From contig JABCZY010000005.1 of the NCBI GenBank assembly GCA_013289395.1, forward strand, positions 1 to 43,507: 43,507 bases of DNA, written 5' to 3'. Position numbers and translations under genes: made by a program. Below the pieces are notes generated by a model, which had not been told where the DNA came from, did no database searches, and was given only the letters and a program-made list of their open reading frames with translations. The stretch is from Bacteroidota bacterium (GTDB taxonomy: Bacteria; Bacteroidota; Bacteroidia; JABEUT01). Each line of letters opens with the position of its first letter. The first letter of the stretch is position 1. Below, one piece after another: positions 18,713-25,605 of this stretch.

Positions 18713-19002
18713 TGAGAAGCAGTAACGACCAGAAATTAGGTGATGCCATTAAGGAGATGCTGAAATTGTATCGCCTGGATGATAAGATAGATGAGCATAA
18801 ACTAATACGCTCTTGGGAACAAGCAGTAGGTGCTTTAGTTGCCAGGCATACTAAAGCCATTTACATAGCTGATCGGAAGCTCTTTGTAACCATTGACTCA
18901 GCTGTGGTACGGAATGAAGTTTTATACGTACGCACCAAGATCATTAAAGACCTGAACGAATTAGTCGGGGCAAAAGTGGTCGACGAATTGGTATTGCGTT
19001 AA
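18712..19002 (+). CDS. DUF721 / DciA-like protein
   Basis: A 96-residue protein of the DUF721 family: the IRSWEQAVGALVARHTKAIYI stretch (W near residue 38) and the RNEVLYVRTKIIKDLNELVG end are typical. DciA proteins of this family are linked to loading of the replicative helicase in bacteria lacking DnaC, so a role in replication is likely. It is translationally coupled to recF. Its stop overlaps the stop of the convergent histidine kinase gene by 4 bases. Confidence 0.85.
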   Translation: MRSSNDQKLGDAIKEMLKLYRLDDKIDEHKLIRSWEQAVGALVARHTKAIYIADRKLFVTIDSAVVRNEVLYVRTKIIKDLNELVGAKVVDELVLR

Positions 19003-21584
19003 GACAGCGACTTGCTCTTTTTCATTACCTGTACGATAATACTATAGAGCTCATCGGGCTTAAATGGTTTTGAAATATATTCGTTCATACCGGCCTCAAT
19101 ACATTTTTCATATTCACCACGGTATGCCGATGCTGTCATAGCAATTATAGGTATGGTTGAAAGCGGTGGCTGCATTTGTGTACGTATAAATGCTGTGGTT
19201 TCAATACCATCTTTTTCGGGCATTTGAAGGTCCATTAATATAAGATTGTATTTTTTGTTCTTCAGCATATCAATGGCTATTGCGCCATTGTCAGCAATTT
19301 CAACTGTTGCGTTCCATTTTGTAAGTGTTCTTTCTCCCACCCTCTGATTTACTTTATTGTCTTCAACAAACAGAATATGCATTCCGGTGAGGTCTTTTAC
19401 TTTGTTTAGTTCAGTTGAAATTAATTCTTCATGCAGATCATGATATTTAGCATATTCAATACAGAACGAAAATGTAGAACCTTTACCTAATTCACTTTCT
19501 GCATTCATTTTTCCGCCCTGCAGTTCAACCAACTTTTGGGTAATATTTAATCCCAGACCCGTTCCGCCATATTTTCGGGTAGTGTTCACATCCGCCTGAA
19601 CAAAGGGTTCAAAAACCACAGCCAGTCTTTCTTTTGGTATGCCGATGCCTGTATCTTTTATAGTGAATTCTACGTTTATTTTCTCGGCACTTTCATGCTT
19701 TACTGCAACATCAAGTGTTACTTCACCTTTTTCAGTGAACTTGATTGCGTTACCTCCAAGATTCCATAGTATTTGTGAAAGCCTTACAGAATCACCTACT
19801 ATATAATCGGGTAGTGCAGCATCGGTATGTGTGTTAAATTTTATGTGCTTTTCTTTTGCCCGTATGCCCAGTGTCAGGTCCATTCCTTTTATTAGTTCTT
19901 TTATGTTGAATGGTTCATTTTCAAATGTAATTCGGCCAGCGTTTATTTTCGACAGATCGAGTATATCATTAATAATTGATAATAACCTGTTAGCAGAGTC
20001 TTTAATTCCACTGACATATTCATCCTGTTCTTCTGTAAGCTTTGTATCGTTAAGCAGGTTAGCCATGCCCATCACACCATTCATGGGAGTTCTTATTTCA
20101 TGGCTCATGCTTGCCAGGAACATTTCTTTGGCTTTGGTTGCGGCCTCTGCTTCTTCTTTTGCGGCAACAAGTTGTTGTTCCAGTTTCTTTCTTTCCGTAA
20201 TATCAGTGAATAATACAAGGCTGAATTTTTCTCCGTTTAATTCGATCAGTTGATTGGAATAGAGTGAAACAATAGGCCTGCCGGAACGATGATACATTAT
20301 TTGCTCAAGGTTTTTTGATGATCCTACTTTCTTGATCCGTTCAATAATTGCTGCTCTTTCAGCTGCACCTATTATTCCTAACTCCATCGGAGTGTGCCCT
20401 ATTGCTTCGTCACGTGTATAGCCTACCATATCAAGATACGCTGCGTTAGCATCAAGTATTCTGCCCGGGCTTAGCTCAAAAACTGCTATACCAATAGGGC
20501 TGAAATCAAAAAGGGTCTGGAATTTTTTATTGCTTTCGAATAATTGCATTTCCAACTCTTTCCTTGCACTAATGTCGCGTACAATGCATTGAAAGTCGCT
20601 GATACGGTTTCCATCGGTTATAAGTGCAACCGTTTGCTCCACCCATTTTTTCTTCCCGTTTTTCTGTAGTATCTGAAATTCTAAAATGGTTTCATTTATT
20701 CTGTCTTTAAATTGTTCTGCATAAAATGCTTTAACTCCGTTTAACATTTCAGGCACAATAAGGAATGTAAAATCTTTTCCAATCAATTCATCCGGCTCAT
20801 AACCGGTCAGCCCTTTTACCCTATGGTTAACAAAAGTAAACATGCCTTTATAGTTATTAGTGAATACAACATCACCAACATCTTCCACCATAGCACGGTA
20901 TTTTTTCTCGCTTTCACTTAGCTTCTTCTCTGCCTCTATTGTTCTGTTCATATCACCATTAAGGCTATACAATACCCATACACCAAACAAAAATGAAATG
21001 CCGCAGCCTAATAAAATAGTAATAACCGAACGATGAATGGCAGCCTGGTTATCCGCAATCCTTATTTTCAATAACCTGTTTTCTTCATTTTGCATTTGAT
21101 TTACCAGGGCTTGTATTTTTATCTCAAGAGAATTTTCTGACGCACTTTCCATCATTTTTTGCGCTTCTGTTAATGACTTGCTTCTTGCATCAATAGCATC
21201 GTAGAAATAACTTATGCGCGCATTTATAAGAAGTGACAGATCAGATGCTCGCTTTTCCTGTACAGCATTATCTTTTACTAATTGTTCAAGCTTGTGCAAA
21301 TACTCATTGTTCAAGATCGATGCTTTATAGCAGGCGTCTATAAATTTATTCTCGCGGGTAAGTAAATAGCCACGTGTGGCATCTTCCATGTCGGTATTTA
21401 CAGCCAGCACTTGTTCAATATTATATAAAACATCCTGTGTGTGATTTGTCATTTCAGCAGAATGAACGCCCAGGCGTGTATTGTAATATGAATAGATGGC
21501 AACCGAAATCAGCGCACTGAATGCGAGGCAAAAAACATAAATTATTTTTTTATGGATCTTCAAACTCCTGGGGGTATTACACAA
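18999..21584 (-). CDS. Hybrid sensor histidine kinase (CHASE3-PAS-PAS-HisKA-HATPase-REC)
   Basis: The start is a TTG at 21582-21584; a second TTG seven codons on is possible and both keep the first membrane helix (about 14-32). The order is: CHASE3-like extracytoplasmic domain (about 40-185), second helix (about 186-208), PAS (225-340), PAS (350-465), HisKA with H495 in SMSHEIRTPMNG, HATPase (N612; DTGIGIP and GTGLGL), and a C-terminal receiver with D785 (LMDLQMP) and K839. There is no Hpt domain, so output should need a separate Hpt protein; a free one is encoded at 25255-25605. The input signal is unknown. Confidence 0.93.
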   Translation of the reverse strand: MCNTPRSLKIHKKIIYVFCLAFSALISVAIYSYYNTRLGVHSAEMTNHTQDVLYNIEQVLAVNTDMEDATRGYLLTRENKFIDACYKASILNNEYLHKLEQLVKDNAVQEKRASDLSLLINARISYFYDAIDARSKSLTEAQKMMESASENSLEIKIQALVNQMQNEENRLLKIRIADNQAAIHRSVITILLGCGISFLFGVWVLYSLNGDMNRTIEAEKKLSESEKKYRAMVEDVGDVVFTNNYKGMFTFVNHRVKGLTGYEPDELIGKDFTFLIVPEMLNGVKAFYAEQFKDRINETILEFQILQKNGKKKWVEQTVALITDGNRISDFQCIVRDISARKELEMQLFESNKKFQTLFDFSPIGIAVFELSPGRILDANAAYLDMVGYTRDEAIGHTPMELGIIGAAERAAIIERIKKVGSSKNLEQIMYHRSGRPIVSLYSNQLIELNGEKFSLVLFTDITERKKLEQQLVAAKEEAEAATKAKEMFLASMSHEIRTPMNGVMGMANLLNDTKLTEEQDEYVSGIKDSANRLLSIINDILDLSKINAGRITFENEPFNIKELIKGMDLTLGIRAKEKHIKFNTHTDAALPDYIVGDSVRLSQILWNLGGNAIKFTEKGEVTLDVAVKHESAEKINVEFTIKDTGIGIPKERLAVVFEPFVQADVNTTRKYGGTGLGLNITQKLVELQGGKMNAESELGKGSTFSFCIEYAKYHDLHEELISTELNKVKDLTGMHILFVEDNKVNQRVGERTLTKWNATVEIADNGAIAIDMLKNKKYNLILMDLQMPEKDGIETTAFIRTQMQPPLSTIPIIAMTASAYRGEYEKCIEAGMNEYISKPFKPDELYSIIVQVMKKSKSLS

Positions 21585-21757: not shown

Positions 21758-23551
21758 TTAGAGTTTGATTATTTTTTGAACCGTACTTTGGCCACTGGCA
21801 AGATCAGTTACATGTACAAAATAAATTCCGCTTGTTAACAGATATCCCTTCTGATACTCATATTGGGTATTCCCTTTTGCACAGATAATAGTTTCACCAT
21901 CAATAAAAGCGCCTGTTGAGCTAAGTACTTCTACTGATAGTTGGGTTGCTTTATCGCTTTCAAAATTGATAGAAAAGCTGGTTTTAAATGGGTTAGGGTA
22001 AGTGTGTTGAGTAAGTAAGGATGTTGAATTGCTTTCGGTATACGTAACGATCACGTCTTCAAATGTTTTGGATTTTCCATCGAAATCGGTTTGCTTTAAG
22101 CGGTAATACGATGTGCCTGCAACCGGATTCTCATCTTTTGCTGAATAACTTAGGGTATAGTCCGAATTACCTGCGCCATCCACAATAGCTACTGTTTCAT
22201 AGTGTGTGCCATCGGTAGTTCTTTCTACAGTAAAGTAATGGTTATTTACTTCAGTTGCAGTCGACCATTTAATATCCACTACATTGCCGTCAGGAATTGC
22301 ACTAAAATTTAACAGGCTAATAGGCATTGGGCTTATTTTAAGTTCAGGAATAAACTCATTCCTTCCGCTTTGCCCTGCTTTTTGTAATACTGATGTTGAT
22401 GCAATGACGGTGGTTCCAAGATCAGTCCAGGTCATAACAGTATTATCGGAGCGATTTGCCAGGCCACCAATATTCTGGGCAGTTACCATTGGGTTTCCCG
22501 TATAGTAGTAGTTAACCTTATAGGTAGGTGAAGTGGAACCTATTATAAACACACCATAATAGTAGCCGGTAGCAAGTGATGTGTAGCCTGCAGGGGCCGT
22601 TGTAGTATTAGGCACAGTATCAATGCAATACAATTGTATGCCGGTAGGGGTTGAGCTGAAATTGGTTATAGATAGTGAATCGCCATAGCTTGAGTTGTTG
22701 ATAGATAAACGGCTACCTCCATATGTATTAACACTTGCATCGCCTATTGGTGCACCCGACCAAACAATAGTGGTATTTGAAGAAGTTCCTTTACGGCCGT
22801 TTGATGTAACATCACTTACACGAGTGCCAGATGTTTCATTCATTCTAAAGTATGCAACCAGGCCCAATTCGGCTCCTTGTAACTTTTTGCACATATATGC
22901 CCGAATCTGTGTTTGTGTAAGTGCCACATTCCAAATACTAACTTCATCAATATCACCATTAAACCTGCGGTACGCATTTCCCGGATTTGCCCACTCGCCA
23001 AAAACAAGATTATACTGTCCATTGTAGTTATTTATGTTTCCGGTTTGAGCATACCGTGACTCAAGTACACCATTTACATATATATTAACGTAGCTTCCAT
23101 CATAAACACCTGCTACATGGTACCATTGGCCGGTAACAGGGCTTGTTACGCTTTGTACATATTGTCTGCCATTACTGGTTTGTACAGCAAATTCAAATAA
23201 TGTATTCAACTGGCTATGTTGTAACCAGAACTGTCCGTCGTCTCCGCTTGCGCTGCTATTACCATTATCAATTGCTACAATACCTGCCCAATTACCCTCA
23301 TTGGTAGTGCTGTTGCATTTTACCCATACAGTTACTGTCATGGTATTGCCTGAGAGCCCCAGGTTATTATTGTTGAATGTTACTCCTGATGAAGTGCCAT
23401 TAAATTCAAGGCAATGCCCTGAATTGCCATTTACGGGTTGGGCTGCTGCAGTGCCTGCAAAAATGGTAACTAAAAAAAGAATTATAAAAAAGGTAATAAT
23501 AGTTATTGCTTCCAGGTTTCCGTTGCTATATCTGTTCTTCGCTGTTTTCAT
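21758..23551 (-). CDS. Exported LamG-domain protein with T9SS type A tail
   Basis: A 597-residue protein with a long signal peptide (about 1-38), a LamG/concanavalin-like jelly-roll (about 45-225; GHCLEFNGTSSGV, WYHVAGVYDGSYVNIYVNG, GDIDEVSIWNVALT), a middle region, an Fn3-like module around VDIKWSTATEVNNHYFTVER, and a type A sorting domain from about 520 (TYPNPFKTSF). It is predicted to be carried to the surface by the type IX system and to bind glycans or proteins; both are inference. Its upstream region has a LytTR-type direct repeat, as does that of the 23745-24410 gene, which shares the same VERTTDGTHYE-type module. Confidence 0.88.
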   Translation of the reverse strand: MKTAKNRYSNGNLEAITIITFFIILFLVTIFAGTAAAQPVNGNSGHCLEFNGTSSGVTFNNNNLGLSGNTMTVTVWVKCNSTTNEGNWAGIVAIDNGNSSASGDDGQFWLQHSQLNTLFEFAVQTSNGRQYVQSVTSPVTGQWYHVAGVYDGSYVNIYVNGVLESRYAQTGNINNYNGQYNLVFGEWANPGNAYRRFNGDIDEVSIWNVALTQTQIRAYMCKKLQGAELGLVAYFRMNETSGTRVSDVTSNGRKGTSSNTTIVWSGAPIGDASVNTYGGSRLSINNSSYGDSLSITNFSSTPTGIQLYCIDTVPNTTTAPAGYTSLATGYYYGVFIIGSTSPTYKVNYYYTGNPMVTAQNIGGLANRSDNTVMTWTDLGTTVIASTSVLQKAGQSGRNEFIPELKISPMPISLLNFSAIPDGNVVDIKWSTATEVNNHYFTVERTTDGTHYETVAIVDGAGNSDYTLSYSAKDENPVAGTSYYRLKQTDFDGKSKTFEDVIVTYTESNSTSLLTQHTYPNPFKTSFSINFESDKATQLSVEVLSSTGAFIDGETIICAKGNTQYEYQKGYLLTSGIYFVHVTDLASGQSTVQKIIKL

Positions 23552-23570
23552 GTTGTTGACTTTATATATG

Positions 23571-23578
23571 CAAGTTTA
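23571..23578 (-). promoter_or_regulatory. -7-like box TAAACTTG of the LamG protein gene
   Basis: The minus-strand TAAACTTG differs from TAnnTTTG by one base. It lies 19 nt upstream of the ATG at 23551, and the direct-repeat element 23606-23642 begins 27 nt further upstream. The neighbouring bases (GCAA..TTACGGC on +) match those at the second promoter, 24435-24442. Confidence 0.5.
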
Positions 23579-23605
23579 CGGCACTTGCAGGGCCTATGTT
23601 CAGCC

Positions 23606-23642
23606 AAACCGACGACTGGTAAGTTTCACTCGACGATTGGTA
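23606..23642 (-). promoter_or_regulatory. LytTR-type direct-repeat operator A
   Basis: Two copies of CGACGAYTGGTA (23610-23621 and 23631-23642) differ by one base and are spaced 21 bp start to start, two helical turns, as in known LytTR operators. The 37-bp block matches 24470-24506 at 28 of 37 positions. It lies 55-91 nt upstream of the LamG protein start, just upstream of where a -33 element would be. Confidence 0.7.
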
Positions 23643-23696
23643 TTCAAGCCTGATACAAGGGGTTACAGTTCTTTGGCTGATGCCTCTTGGATAATT

Positions 23697-23722
23697 AAAA
23701 AAGGGGCTATGTAGCCCCCTTT
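23697..23722 (-). terminator. Intrinsic terminator of the 23745-24410 gene
   Basis: A GGGGCTA/TAGCCCC stem (23703-23709 with 23712-23718) flanked by A/T pairs is followed on the minus strand by TTTTTTAATTAT. It lies 23-48 nt past the stop and insulates operator A from upstream transcription. Confidence 0.8.
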
Positions 23723-23744
23723 CACCCTTTATCCCCTCACTTTA

Positions 23745-24410
23745 TTATTTAGCCATGCTCGATTCCAGCACTAATACTTTATTGAACTTAAGATTGTGGT
23801 AAGTCACATACAATACGTAAACACCTTTTTCAACTTTTGGCTCGATCTTATAGTTATTCAAACCCATTGAAACTTTACGGTTTTGAGATAGAATGGTTTT
23901 TCCATCTACACTGGTAATAGTAATAGAACAGGTGTCGTCACTTTTTGCATTTATTTGTATAAATACATCGGTTGATGTATTGAACCCCTCAATATCCTCA
24001 TTGTTTTCGCAAGGAGTATAGACTACCGTATTTAAATATGTCTGTTTCCCTTCATCAGAAAATTGAGAGATACGGTAATAGGATATTCCGGTTAAAGGAG
24101 TGTTGTCGATAACAGAGTATTGATGAGTTGAGAGACCCTGAATGGCCTGAACATCGCCTATTAACTCATAATGTACACCATCCTGTGTGCGTTCTATAGT
24201 ATAGTGGTCGGCATTGTCGTCGGTTACGTTCCACTTGATAATGGCTTCATTATTAGTGCATTCTGCTCTGTATGAACCAAATCTATCGGTCGATACTGGC
24301 GCTGCTGTTAAATTGGTTACTGCTAAAAGCAGAAGAAAAAGGATTGCCATAAAAGTTAAAGCTGTTCCGGTTTCTTTTTTGTCGCTGGTATATATGTCTT
24401 GTGTTTTCAT
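23745..24410 (-). CDS. Exported Fn3-like protein with T9SS-type C-terminal end
   Basis: The start is set at the ATG at 24410, which gives a signal-anchor (MKTQDIYTSDKKETGTALTF then a hydrophobic run to TAAP). The longer frame to 24527 would run through the promoter and operator B. The 221-residue protein has one Fn3-like module (IIKWNVTDDNADHYTIERTQ ... YYRISQFSDEGK) and a C-terminal domain (ITSVDGKTIL ... KVEKGVYVLYV) of the type A sorting kind. It is probably surface-exposed and coregulated with the LamG protein downstream, which has an own promoter of the same design. Confidence 0.8.
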   Translation of the reverse strand: MKTQDIYTSDKKETGTALTFMAILFLLLLAVTNLTAAPVSTDRFGSYRAECTNNEAIIKWNVTDDNADHYTIERTQDGVHYELIGDVQAIQGLSTHQYSVIDNTPLTGISYYRISQFSDEGKQTYLNTVVYTPCENNEDIEGFNTSTDVFIQINAKSDDTCSITITSVDGKTILSQNRKVSMGLNNYKIEPKVEKGVYVLYVTYHNLKFNKVLVLESSMAK

Positions 24411-24434
24411 GATGTTTGATTTTGTTTTATAGAG

Positions 24435-24442
24435 CAATATTA
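24435..24442 (-). promoter_or_regulatory. -7-like box TAATATTG of the 23745-24410 gene
   Basis: The minus-strand TAATATTG is one mismatch from TAnnTTTG, lies 24 nt upstream of the ATG, and is separated from operator B by 27 nt, exactly as at 23571-23578. Confidence 0.5.
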
Positions 24443-24469
24443 CGGCGGTATGTACCCTTACACTTATCA

Positions 24470-24506
24470 AAACCGATGAATGGAATACTTCATTCGATGA
24501 CTGGTA
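24470..24506. promoter_or_regulatory. LytTR-type direct-repeat operator B
   Basis: CGATGAATGGAA (24474-24485) and CGATGACTGGTA (24495-24506) have the same 21-bp period as operator A. The element lies between the leftward exported-protein gene and the rightward LytTR regulator gene, 27 nt from the leftward -7-like box and 30 nt from the rightward -7 box, so one site could serve both. Confidence 0.7.
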
Positions 24507-24536: not shown

Positions 24537-24544
24537 TACTTTTG
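24537..24544 (+). promoter_or_regulatory. -7 box TACTTTTG for the LytTR regulator
   Basis: It is a perfect TAnnTTTG ending 17 nt before the ATG at 24562. It falls inside the longer open frame that begins at 24526, so the shorter start is preferred. Confidence 0.55.
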
Positions 24545-24561
24545 GTTATGAAACCTCAACC

Positions 24562-25248
24562 ATGAATTGTATTATAATAGATGATAATGAAGTAGCCAGA
24601 GCAGCTGTTAAACATTGTGTGGAGAAAACCCCATTTCTTACGCTAACTGGTGTTTATACTAACCCTATTGAGGCTCTTGAAGCCATAAAGAATGATAAGC
24701 CTGACCTGTTACTGCTTGATGTAGAGATGCCTGAAATGAGCGGTATTGACTTTATTAAAACTTTCCACGATATACCCCAGGTAATACTTATAACATCTAA
24801 AAAGGAATATGCCGCTGAGGCATTTGATTTTAATGTTACCGATTATATTTTAAAACCTGTAGAATATCCCCGCTTTCTAAAAGCAGTTACCAAAGCAAAG
24901 GAAATGCAGGAGAGCCTTAAAAAGGAGACACCTGAAAGCAGTGAAATATTTATTAAGGTGACGAATAAATTTGTGCATCTTAACCTTAAGGATATACTTG
25001 TAGTTGAAGCATTAGCTGACTATGTGAATATTTATGTTGACAAGCAGCGATACACAGTTCTGTCTACTATGAAAGCAATTGAAGATAAATTGCCTAAGAA
25101 AGATTTTATACGTGTGCACCGTTCTTACATAGTGCGGATCGATAAAATTAAAGAGATAGATGACCAGGTAATTTCAATAGCTGATCAACACATACCCATA
25201 AGCCGCAATATGAAAGAGTCGGTAATGAATGCGTTAAACAAGCTATAA
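24562..25248 (+). CDS. LytTR-family response regulator
   Basis: A 228-residue regulator (start chosen at ATG 24562; the extra 12 residues from 24526 would overlap the promoter box). The receiver domain (1-115) has acidic D7/D8, phosphoacceptor D53 in LLDVEMPEMSG, T78 and K98. The LytTR DNA-binding domain (about 128-226) has the typical EALADYVNIYV, FIRVHRSYIV and IPISR stretches. LytTR proteins bind paired direct repeats; two such elements sit beside this gene. It is followed after 6 nt by an Hpt protein, its likely phosphodonor. Confidence 0.93.
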   Translation: MNCIIIDDNEVARAAVKHCVEKTPFLTLTGVYTNPIEALEAIKNDKPDLLLLDVEMPEMSGIDFIKTFHDIPQVILITSKKEYAAEAFDFNVTDYILKPVEYPRFLKAVTKAKEMQESLKKETPESSEIFIKVTNKFVHLNLKDILVVEALADYVNIYVDKQRYTVLSTMKAIEDKLPKKDFIRVHRSYIVRIDKIKEIDDQVISIADQHIPISRNMKESVMNALNKL

Positions 25249-25254
25249 TAGCGT

Positions 25255-25605
25255 ATGGCTGAGAACAATTCATTAAAGCACTTATACGCATTGGCCGAAG
25301 ATGACATGGAGTTTGTAAAGGAAATATTGGACCTGATGTCTAAAAATATTCCGATAGATGTAAAGTCAATTGAGGATGCCCTTGCAGCCAATGATCTTAA
25401 CCAGGCAAAAAGAGATTCGCATAGAATGAAATCATCAATTCAATATGGTGACTGTATTGAATTATCAGATCTTTTATCGGCAATAGAAAATAAAAAAGAA
25501 TCGGATACTGCTATTGCGCAAGTAAAGGAGATGATGCCTGAATTAAAAGAATTGTCGGATAAACTGATGGAGACAATCAGGGCAGAAAAGAAAAAGATAG
25601 GATAG
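25255..25605 (+). CDS. Stand-alone Hpt phosphotransfer protein
   Basis: A 116-residue all-helical protein. The Hpt motif is at H56 within AKRDSHRMKSSIQYGD, in the position of the usual AHxLKGSA. Hpt proteins shuttle phosphate between receiver domains. It is only 6 nt after the LytTR regulator and the nearest hybrid kinase, which lacks an Hpt, is 4 kb away at 18999-21584; a phosphorelay joining the three is inference. A terminator for the convergent ndk gene overlaps its 3' end. Confidence 0.85.
   Translation: MAENNSLKHLYALAEDDMEFVKEILDLMSKNIPIDVKSIEDALAANDLNQAKRDSHRMKSSIQYGDCIELSDLLSAIENKKESDTAIAQVKEMMPELKELSDKLMETIRAEKKKIG

Follow-up and report, generated by a model that had tools for sequence, protein, structure and literature searches.

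Putative LytTR-type operators, few and conserved, in front of genes for exported surface proteins: a probable regulon of the neighbouring LytTR regulator

Two similar 37-bp elements precede two exported-protein genes beside a LytTR response regulator gene in a 43,507-nt stretch of DNA from a Bacteroidota bacterium (hereafter the window, meaning the whole stretch analysed), and the question raised by this locus is whether the elements are operators of that regulator. The elements (23606-23642 and 24470-24506) were recomputed exactly as given in the original prediction, being identical at 28 of 37 positions, and the core of each (23610-23642 and 24474-24506, respectively) consists of two 12-bp direct repeats with a 21-bp period. 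Read towards the genes, both follow TACCAnTCRTCG-N9-TACCAnTCRTCG and then GTTT, with TTCCATTCATCG instead as the proximal half of operator 2, and both lie in a common context (GCAAGTTTACGGC and GCAATATTACGGC, respectively). When up to 3 mismatches were allowed, the paired motif was found at 2 sites in the window (each with 0 mismatches) and at none in 100 shuffled versions of it. One 12-mer taken alone, with up to 2 mismatches, occurred 23 times in the window against 19.6 expected, which is the chance level, and the 21-bp pairing is therefore the unusual part. The features of the locus are collected in Table 1.

Table 1. Observed and predicted features of the LytTR locus in the window
Feature	Position	Strand	Details
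Hybrid histidine kinase CHASE3-PAS-PAS-HisKA-HATPase-REC	18999..21584	-	His495, receiver Asp785
Exported LamG/ConA-like protein, 597 aa, T9SS type A sorting domain	21758..23551	-	Laminin_G_3 8.3e-27, Por_Secre_tail 2.2e-7, TIGR04183 30.4 bits
-7-like box of LamG gene	23571..23578	-	TAAACTTG; 31 nt from operator 1
LytTR-type operator 1 (predicted)	23610..23642	-	TACCAATCGTCG-N9-TACCAGTCGTCG gene-ward; as 9-mers ACCAATCGT-N12-ACCAGTCGT
Small exported protein, 221 aa, weak T9SS type A sorting domain	23745..24410	-	TIGR04183 23.1 bits vs cut-off 23
-7-like box of small exported gene	24435..24442	-	TAATATTG; 31 nt from operator 2
LytTR-type operator 2 (predicted)	24474..24506	-	TACCAGTCATCG-N9-TTCCATTCATCG gene-ward; between small exported gene and regulator gene
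Candidate -7 box of regulator gene	24538..24545	+	TACTTTTG; 31 nt from other side of operator 2 (counted)
LytTR response regulator	24562..25248	+	Pfam Response_reg 4.5e-20, LytTR 1.8e-21; ORF open from 24526
Stand-alone Hpt protein	25255..25605	+	Pfam Hpt 3.4e-8; His56; starts 6 bp after regulator gene

Two copies of the element had been predicted, and while both are present in the window, the genome total is at least three. In the genome to which the window belongs (G000; 1.87 Mb, 52% complete), a search that allowed up to 3 mismatches gave exactly 3 sites, each of them a perfect match, and the reversed pattern as a control gave 0 sites in the same 1.87 Mb. The third perfect copy, recovered by this search with the motif of the original prediction, is located on an unlinked contig (C6:24533-24565) and precedes the gene of a collagen-like exported protein (655 aa, with a signal-like N-terminus as judged by eye). 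All 3 sites in the assembled half of the genome precede a gene with a -7-like box, and this is not the picture of a motif scattered over the genome without link to promoters, which had been named beforehand as the refuting case. The element as a dispersed repeat was rejected as well, because only three copies were found in the own genome, each preceding a gene. Behind the third operator, the collagen-like gene, a gene for a T9SS protein and a gene for a T9SS protein with 14 GloVer-type repeats are arranged at L004:7650-14529.

Both window genes had been predicted to encode type IX-exported proteins, and the products of both passed the TIGR04183 cut-off of 23 bits, the small one barely. In the third cluster, two of the three encoded proteins exceeded the same cut-off and the collagen-like product of the first gene did not; at the corresponding locus of a related genome (G003, described below), all 3 exported proteins exceeded it. 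All three target clusters in G000 thus hold at least one T9SS gene. The link between operator and T9SS cargo is suggestive only, because T9SS genes are common in G000 (94 sorting-domain matches, with 150 of 155 candidates scored) and the first gene of the third target is without a T9SS domain. The small exported protein gave no Pfam family at E 0.001, and its homologs in G003 are 45% and 51% identical to it. A partial match to the TafC fimbrial model, far below the cut-off, was noted for the LamG protein and its G003 ortholog (E 8.6e-9 and 6.3e-8, respectively).

The family-level set for the analysis of conservation comprised 11 genomes, all of one genus, and an order-level search gave the same 11. 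With up to 2 mismatches, the motif was found in G000 and G003 only, and the reversed-pattern control gave one site each in G001 and G007. The operator-bearing contig of G003 (JABDGY010000014.1, also labelled L042) is syntenic with the window locus and carries an ortholog of the regulator (82-84% identical), an adjacent Hpt gene (product 60% identical), two tandem small exported genes, a LamG gene and, in the same position as in the window, the start of the hybrid kinase gene (56% identity over 187 aa at the contig end). The element precedes all 3 exported genes at this locus, one copy each, and the copy at L007:5189, of which one half-site is degraded, was recovered by a matrix scan. The two copies of the small exported gene (L007:5290-6860) thus each have their own operator. 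Operators are known from two species only, and the pattern of presence and absence is soft because the operator-bearing genomes (G000 52% and G003 60% complete) and most of the nine operator-free ones (three at 96-99%, six at 57-86%) are incomplete.

Among 395 genomes of the class, searched with up to 1 mismatch, matches outside the genus were found in 4 genomes (G141, G222, G371 and G234) versus 3 for the reversed pattern (G121, G188 and G227) in the same 384 genomes, and the class-wide matches outside the genus are therefore background. The sites in G222 and G371 fall in the same long coding frame, which a scan of the G371 copy identified as a class I tRNA synthetase, and the site in G141 is upstream of the gene of a receiver-only response regulator that adjoins a haem-NO-binding gene. 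A LytTR domain was found in none of the proteins scanned near the out-of-genus sites at two loci (three proteins of L122 and two of L125). The window-type motif was absent at the 14 loci examined of genus regulators with 33-45% identity to that of the window. It was also not found in several genus members at L029, L030, L031 and L033, where a LytTR regulator 43-47% identical to that of the window adjoins further receiver and kinase genes. Regulators from other Bacteroidetes with 52-57% identity (L043-L048; the L043 sequence covers just 354 bp upstream of its regulator) were accompanied by no such element in the sequence covered; L042, on the contig of G003, was the sole locus among 80 to have it. 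A promoter sequence model was built from the six operator sites of G000 and G003 and so recovers them by construction; beyond these six, the strongest match had E = 0.089 when, in each of the 11 genomes, 150 out of 235-601 candidates were scored.

Nearly all LytTR sites are two repeats of 9-11 nt that are 11-13 nt apart (PMC4847170, in the part of the paper available). The elements agree with this norm, as 9-mers ACCAnTCRT separated by 12 bp, and ACCAnTCRT-N12-ACCAnTCRT is intact in both halves in 4 of the 6 operators; the proximal half-site is off consensus in 2 of the 6, namely before the small exported gene of G000 (TCCATTCAT) and before the first small exported gene of G003 (GCTACTCAT). 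The repeats are also placed as in LytTR operators, immediately upstream of a core promoter at a fixed distance, and a LytTR regulator gene adjoins them in both species. The -7-like boxes of the two window genes, together with the shared context, were recovered on the minus strand where they had been predicted; they are present at equal distance, but in the form TAnnnTTG and without the full TAnnTTTG. The boxes of the six related promoters are TAAACTTG, TAATATTG, TAATATTA, TAAAATTG, TAAACTTG and TAGAATTG, and in every one of them (3 in G000 and 3 in G003) the element ends 31 nt before the TA of this box. If the TA is placed at -12, the centre of the element is computed to be near -60. A scan for sigma-70 promoters and terminators gave about the same level as its shuffles.

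A -33 motif is expected with its TTG ending 17-23 nt before the TA, and within this range it was absent in all six promoters inspected. T at -8 is missing in all six as well; in the Flavobacterium promoter consensus (TTTG / TANNTTTG), T at -8 is almost invariant (PMC6847099, as far as the accessible text goes). When 5 of the 15 possible promoter pairs were compared, the 37-bp element was identical at 28-33 of 37 positions and the 26 bp between element and box at 10-17 of 26. The element is thus kept better than the stretch to the box, and the spacing is fixed, which suggests selection for the element, for the box and for the distance between them.

The same comparison bears on the reading that the similarity is a leftover of a promoter duplicated together with a gene family, with no LytTR binding at all. 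G003 carries the small exported gene as a tandem pair, and most of the small protein of the window is similar to the C-terminal region of the LamG protein (32% over residues 48-203), so that the adjacent genes may be related by duplication. The promoters of the LamG and collagen-like genes, however, which are on separate contigs and serve unlike proteins, keep the element at 33 of 37 positions and the stretch to the box at only 10 of 26, and the exact spacing in all six promoters speaks in the same direction, which makes simple descent from one duplicated promoter very improbable.

Control could also run in the other direction, with the regulator binding and repressing, or with the promoters being controlled both ways, since the element adjoins the promoter and the direction is not readable from sequence. 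This is considered distinctly improbable: the absence of a -33 motif and of T at -8 in the -7 box, in six of six cases, indicates weak promoters in need of help, and the repeat pair is located upstream of the core promoter, as at the promoters activated by AgrA and in the LytTR Regulatory System (LRS) (PMC4227749 and PMC6193735, respectively, in the portions available).

Activation by a LytTR protein being preferred, it remains to be considered which LytTR protein is involved. In the 11 genus genomes, 58 LytTR matches were found (1 to 9 per genome), so that LytTR proteins are common in the group, and G000 holds at least 5 in its assembled half. The elements could thus be LytTR operators worked by another of these proteins, with the neighbouring regulator having other targets. 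A reciprocal-best-hit test was performed with 56 of the 58 matches, omitting a broken frame (G010:C4) and a match below the cut-off (G005:C1). The window regulator had a reciprocal best hit in G003 alone, 1 of the 10 other genus genomes, and none in the nine operator-free genomes, whereas the other four LytTR proteins of G000 had partners in 8, 8, 7 and 7 of the 10 genomes, mostly operator-free ones. Two of these four (C52 and C50) have no partner in the operator-bearing G003, and the other two (C30 and C72) have one each in G003 and six elsewhere. With the ortholog of the neighbouring regulator solely in the operator-bearing genome, and with operator 2 lying within the upstream region of its gene, control by another LytTR protein is improbable.

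For the regulator gene, 24562 (MNCIIIDD...) is a likelier start than 24526, where its longest ORF opens, because relatives begin at MNCIIIDD or alike. With numbering from 24526, the receiver Asp is residue 65 and FIRVHRS at residues 194-200 corresponds to the FhRhHRS motif. A sequence search of the PDB with the regulator matched the receiver part among the best 60 of 176 matches. All four modules of a phosphorelay were found at the locus, with HisKA His495 and receiver Asp785 in the hybrid kinase, His56 in the Hpt protein and Asp65 in the regulator, which we take to be the phosphorylation sites on the basis of known sequence motifs. The hybrid kinase is probably the sensor, and the Hpt protein the partner, of one phosphorelay with the regulator, because of the gene positions at the locus, which are kept in G003. 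The regulator gene may in addition be autoregulated: its candidate -7 box would be served by operator 2 from the other side, and the G003 gene has the box TATTTTTG at 33 nt from the operator. The distance from box to ATG is 17 nt in both genomes, the spacing to the operator differing (31 vs 33 nt), and autoregulation through operator 2 is regarded as possible.

The original prediction of a dedicated LytTR regulon is strengthened by the third copy, the syntenic conservation, the 31-nt spacing in all six promoters, the published form of the repeats and the co-occurrence of regulator and operators. Judging from the sequence, the few conserved LytTR-type operators and the exported surface protein genes behind them most likely form a regulon of the neighbouring regulator, and we hold it to be quite probable that the elements are the operators of this regulator (24562-25248), that it is phosphorylated by the relay and that it activates the exported surface protein genes. 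The mechanism that we infer for binding, activation and phosphate transfer is as follows. Phosphate would probably pass from the hybrid kinase (18999-21584) to its own receiver, to the Hpt protein (25255-25605) and finally to the receiver of the LytTR regulator. Each repeat would provide one ACCAnTCRT half-site, and the 9-12-9 bp pair, with its centre some 60 bp before the expected transcription start, would bind two copies of the regulator on the same side of the helix. The bound regulator would contact RNA polymerase, and transcription probably depends on this contact, because the promoters are without a -33 motif and their -7 box is defective. The output would be the LamG protein, the 221-aa protein and, from the unlinked cluster, the collagen-like protein followed by two T9SS-sorted proteins.

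A LytTR regulator gene with a histidine kinase gene is also found divergent from a DoxX gene in three genus genomes (L037:8960-9160, L038:8885-9085 and, on the minus strand, L040:5910-6140). The regulators of these loci are 37-39% identical to that of the window (families were scanned for one of the three loci). The intergenic region is conserved, with a 9-12-9 repeat of other half-sites in 2 of the 3 loci (half-sites matching each other at 7 of 9 positions; 4 of 9 in G007), at the same place, 32 nt before TATGTTTG, in all three. In a control on the 18 loci that lack the window-type operator, 4 repeat-plus-box matches were obtained versus a mean of 2.95 in 20 shuffles; at 32-33 nt there were 3 matches versus a shuffle mean of 0.5 (largest 2), but 2 were also found in reversed sequence. 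Of the 6 window-type operators themselves, no more than 4 got through the repeat-plus-box filter. The DoxX-locus repeat was demoted as independent support for LytTR operators, the filter being near chance in the control, and is recorded only as a lead to a possible further class of LytTR operator among these genomes.

In the literature surveyed, which was thin on subscription journals, no description of a LytTR regulon for type IX cargo in Bacteroidetes was found. The type of switch, a LytTR direct-repeat operator, is known, and the target set, the relay and the Bacteroidetes setting appear to be undescribed. A wider reading, offered tentatively, would be that a four-step relay ending in a LytTR regulator is a dedicated switch for an exported surface coat (LamG, small sorted and collagen-like proteins) in a Bacteroidetes lineage, that the LytTR pair replaces the missing -33 motif, and that the fixed spacing from repeat to -7 box marks LytTR-activated promoters in the group, whose regulons could then be read from sequence. 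With an operator defined at a fixed distance to the -7 box, such regulons would become predictable from genomes and testable in culturable relatives, and the locus suggests that individual exported surface proteins have signalling systems of their own to switch them.

The arrangement was compared with four published systems, each as far as the available parts of the cited papers describe it. In the LRS of Streptococcus mutans and others (HdrR and BrsR), 9-bp ACC-type direct repeats 12 bp apart, e.g. ACCACTTAT-12 bp-ACCGCTTAT, are also located just before the core promoter, with a strong bias for a 10-bp gap to the -35 (PMC6193735). For the tabulated LRS operators in which the gap is 10 bp, the -35 is 6 bp and the spacer is 17 bp, the -10 box is computed to lie 42 nt from where the proximal repeat starts, and here the -7 box is likewise computed to lie 42 nt from where the proximal 9-mer starts. 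LRS regulators are paired with an inhibitory membrane protein, whereas a receiver-LytTR protein is accompanied here by a hybrid kinase and an Hpt protein, and the Bacteroidetes-type -7 box and the exported surface protein targets also differ from LRS (PMC6193735). The locus was therefore rejected as an LRS: in place of an inhibitory membrane protein without a kinase, a receiver domain is present and the neighbours are an Hpt protein, a hybrid kinase and exported proteins.

In Bacteroides thetaiotaomicron and B. ovatus, LRS-like operons also have repeats before a Bacteroidetes promoter and an adjoining LytTR gene, in the arrangement TCCGGTATTCA-11 bp-ACCGGAAATCA, 11 bp, TGTA-19 bp-TATCTTTG; unlike here, the LytTR regulators are membrane-spanning, autoregulation is presumed and the period is 22 bp (PMC6193735). 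YpdB of Escherichia coli is, as predicted here, a LytTR response regulator acting on two direct repeats, and its system differs in the LytS-type kinase, the single target yhjX and the repeat GGCATTTCAT (PMC4847170). AgrA of Staphylococcus aureus differs in its targets, kinase type and half-site sequence, and it shares with the present regulator the receiver-LytTR composition, the FhRhHRS motif (FIRVHRS here), suboptimal core promoters and a direct-repeat pair that sits near -60 (PMC4227749).
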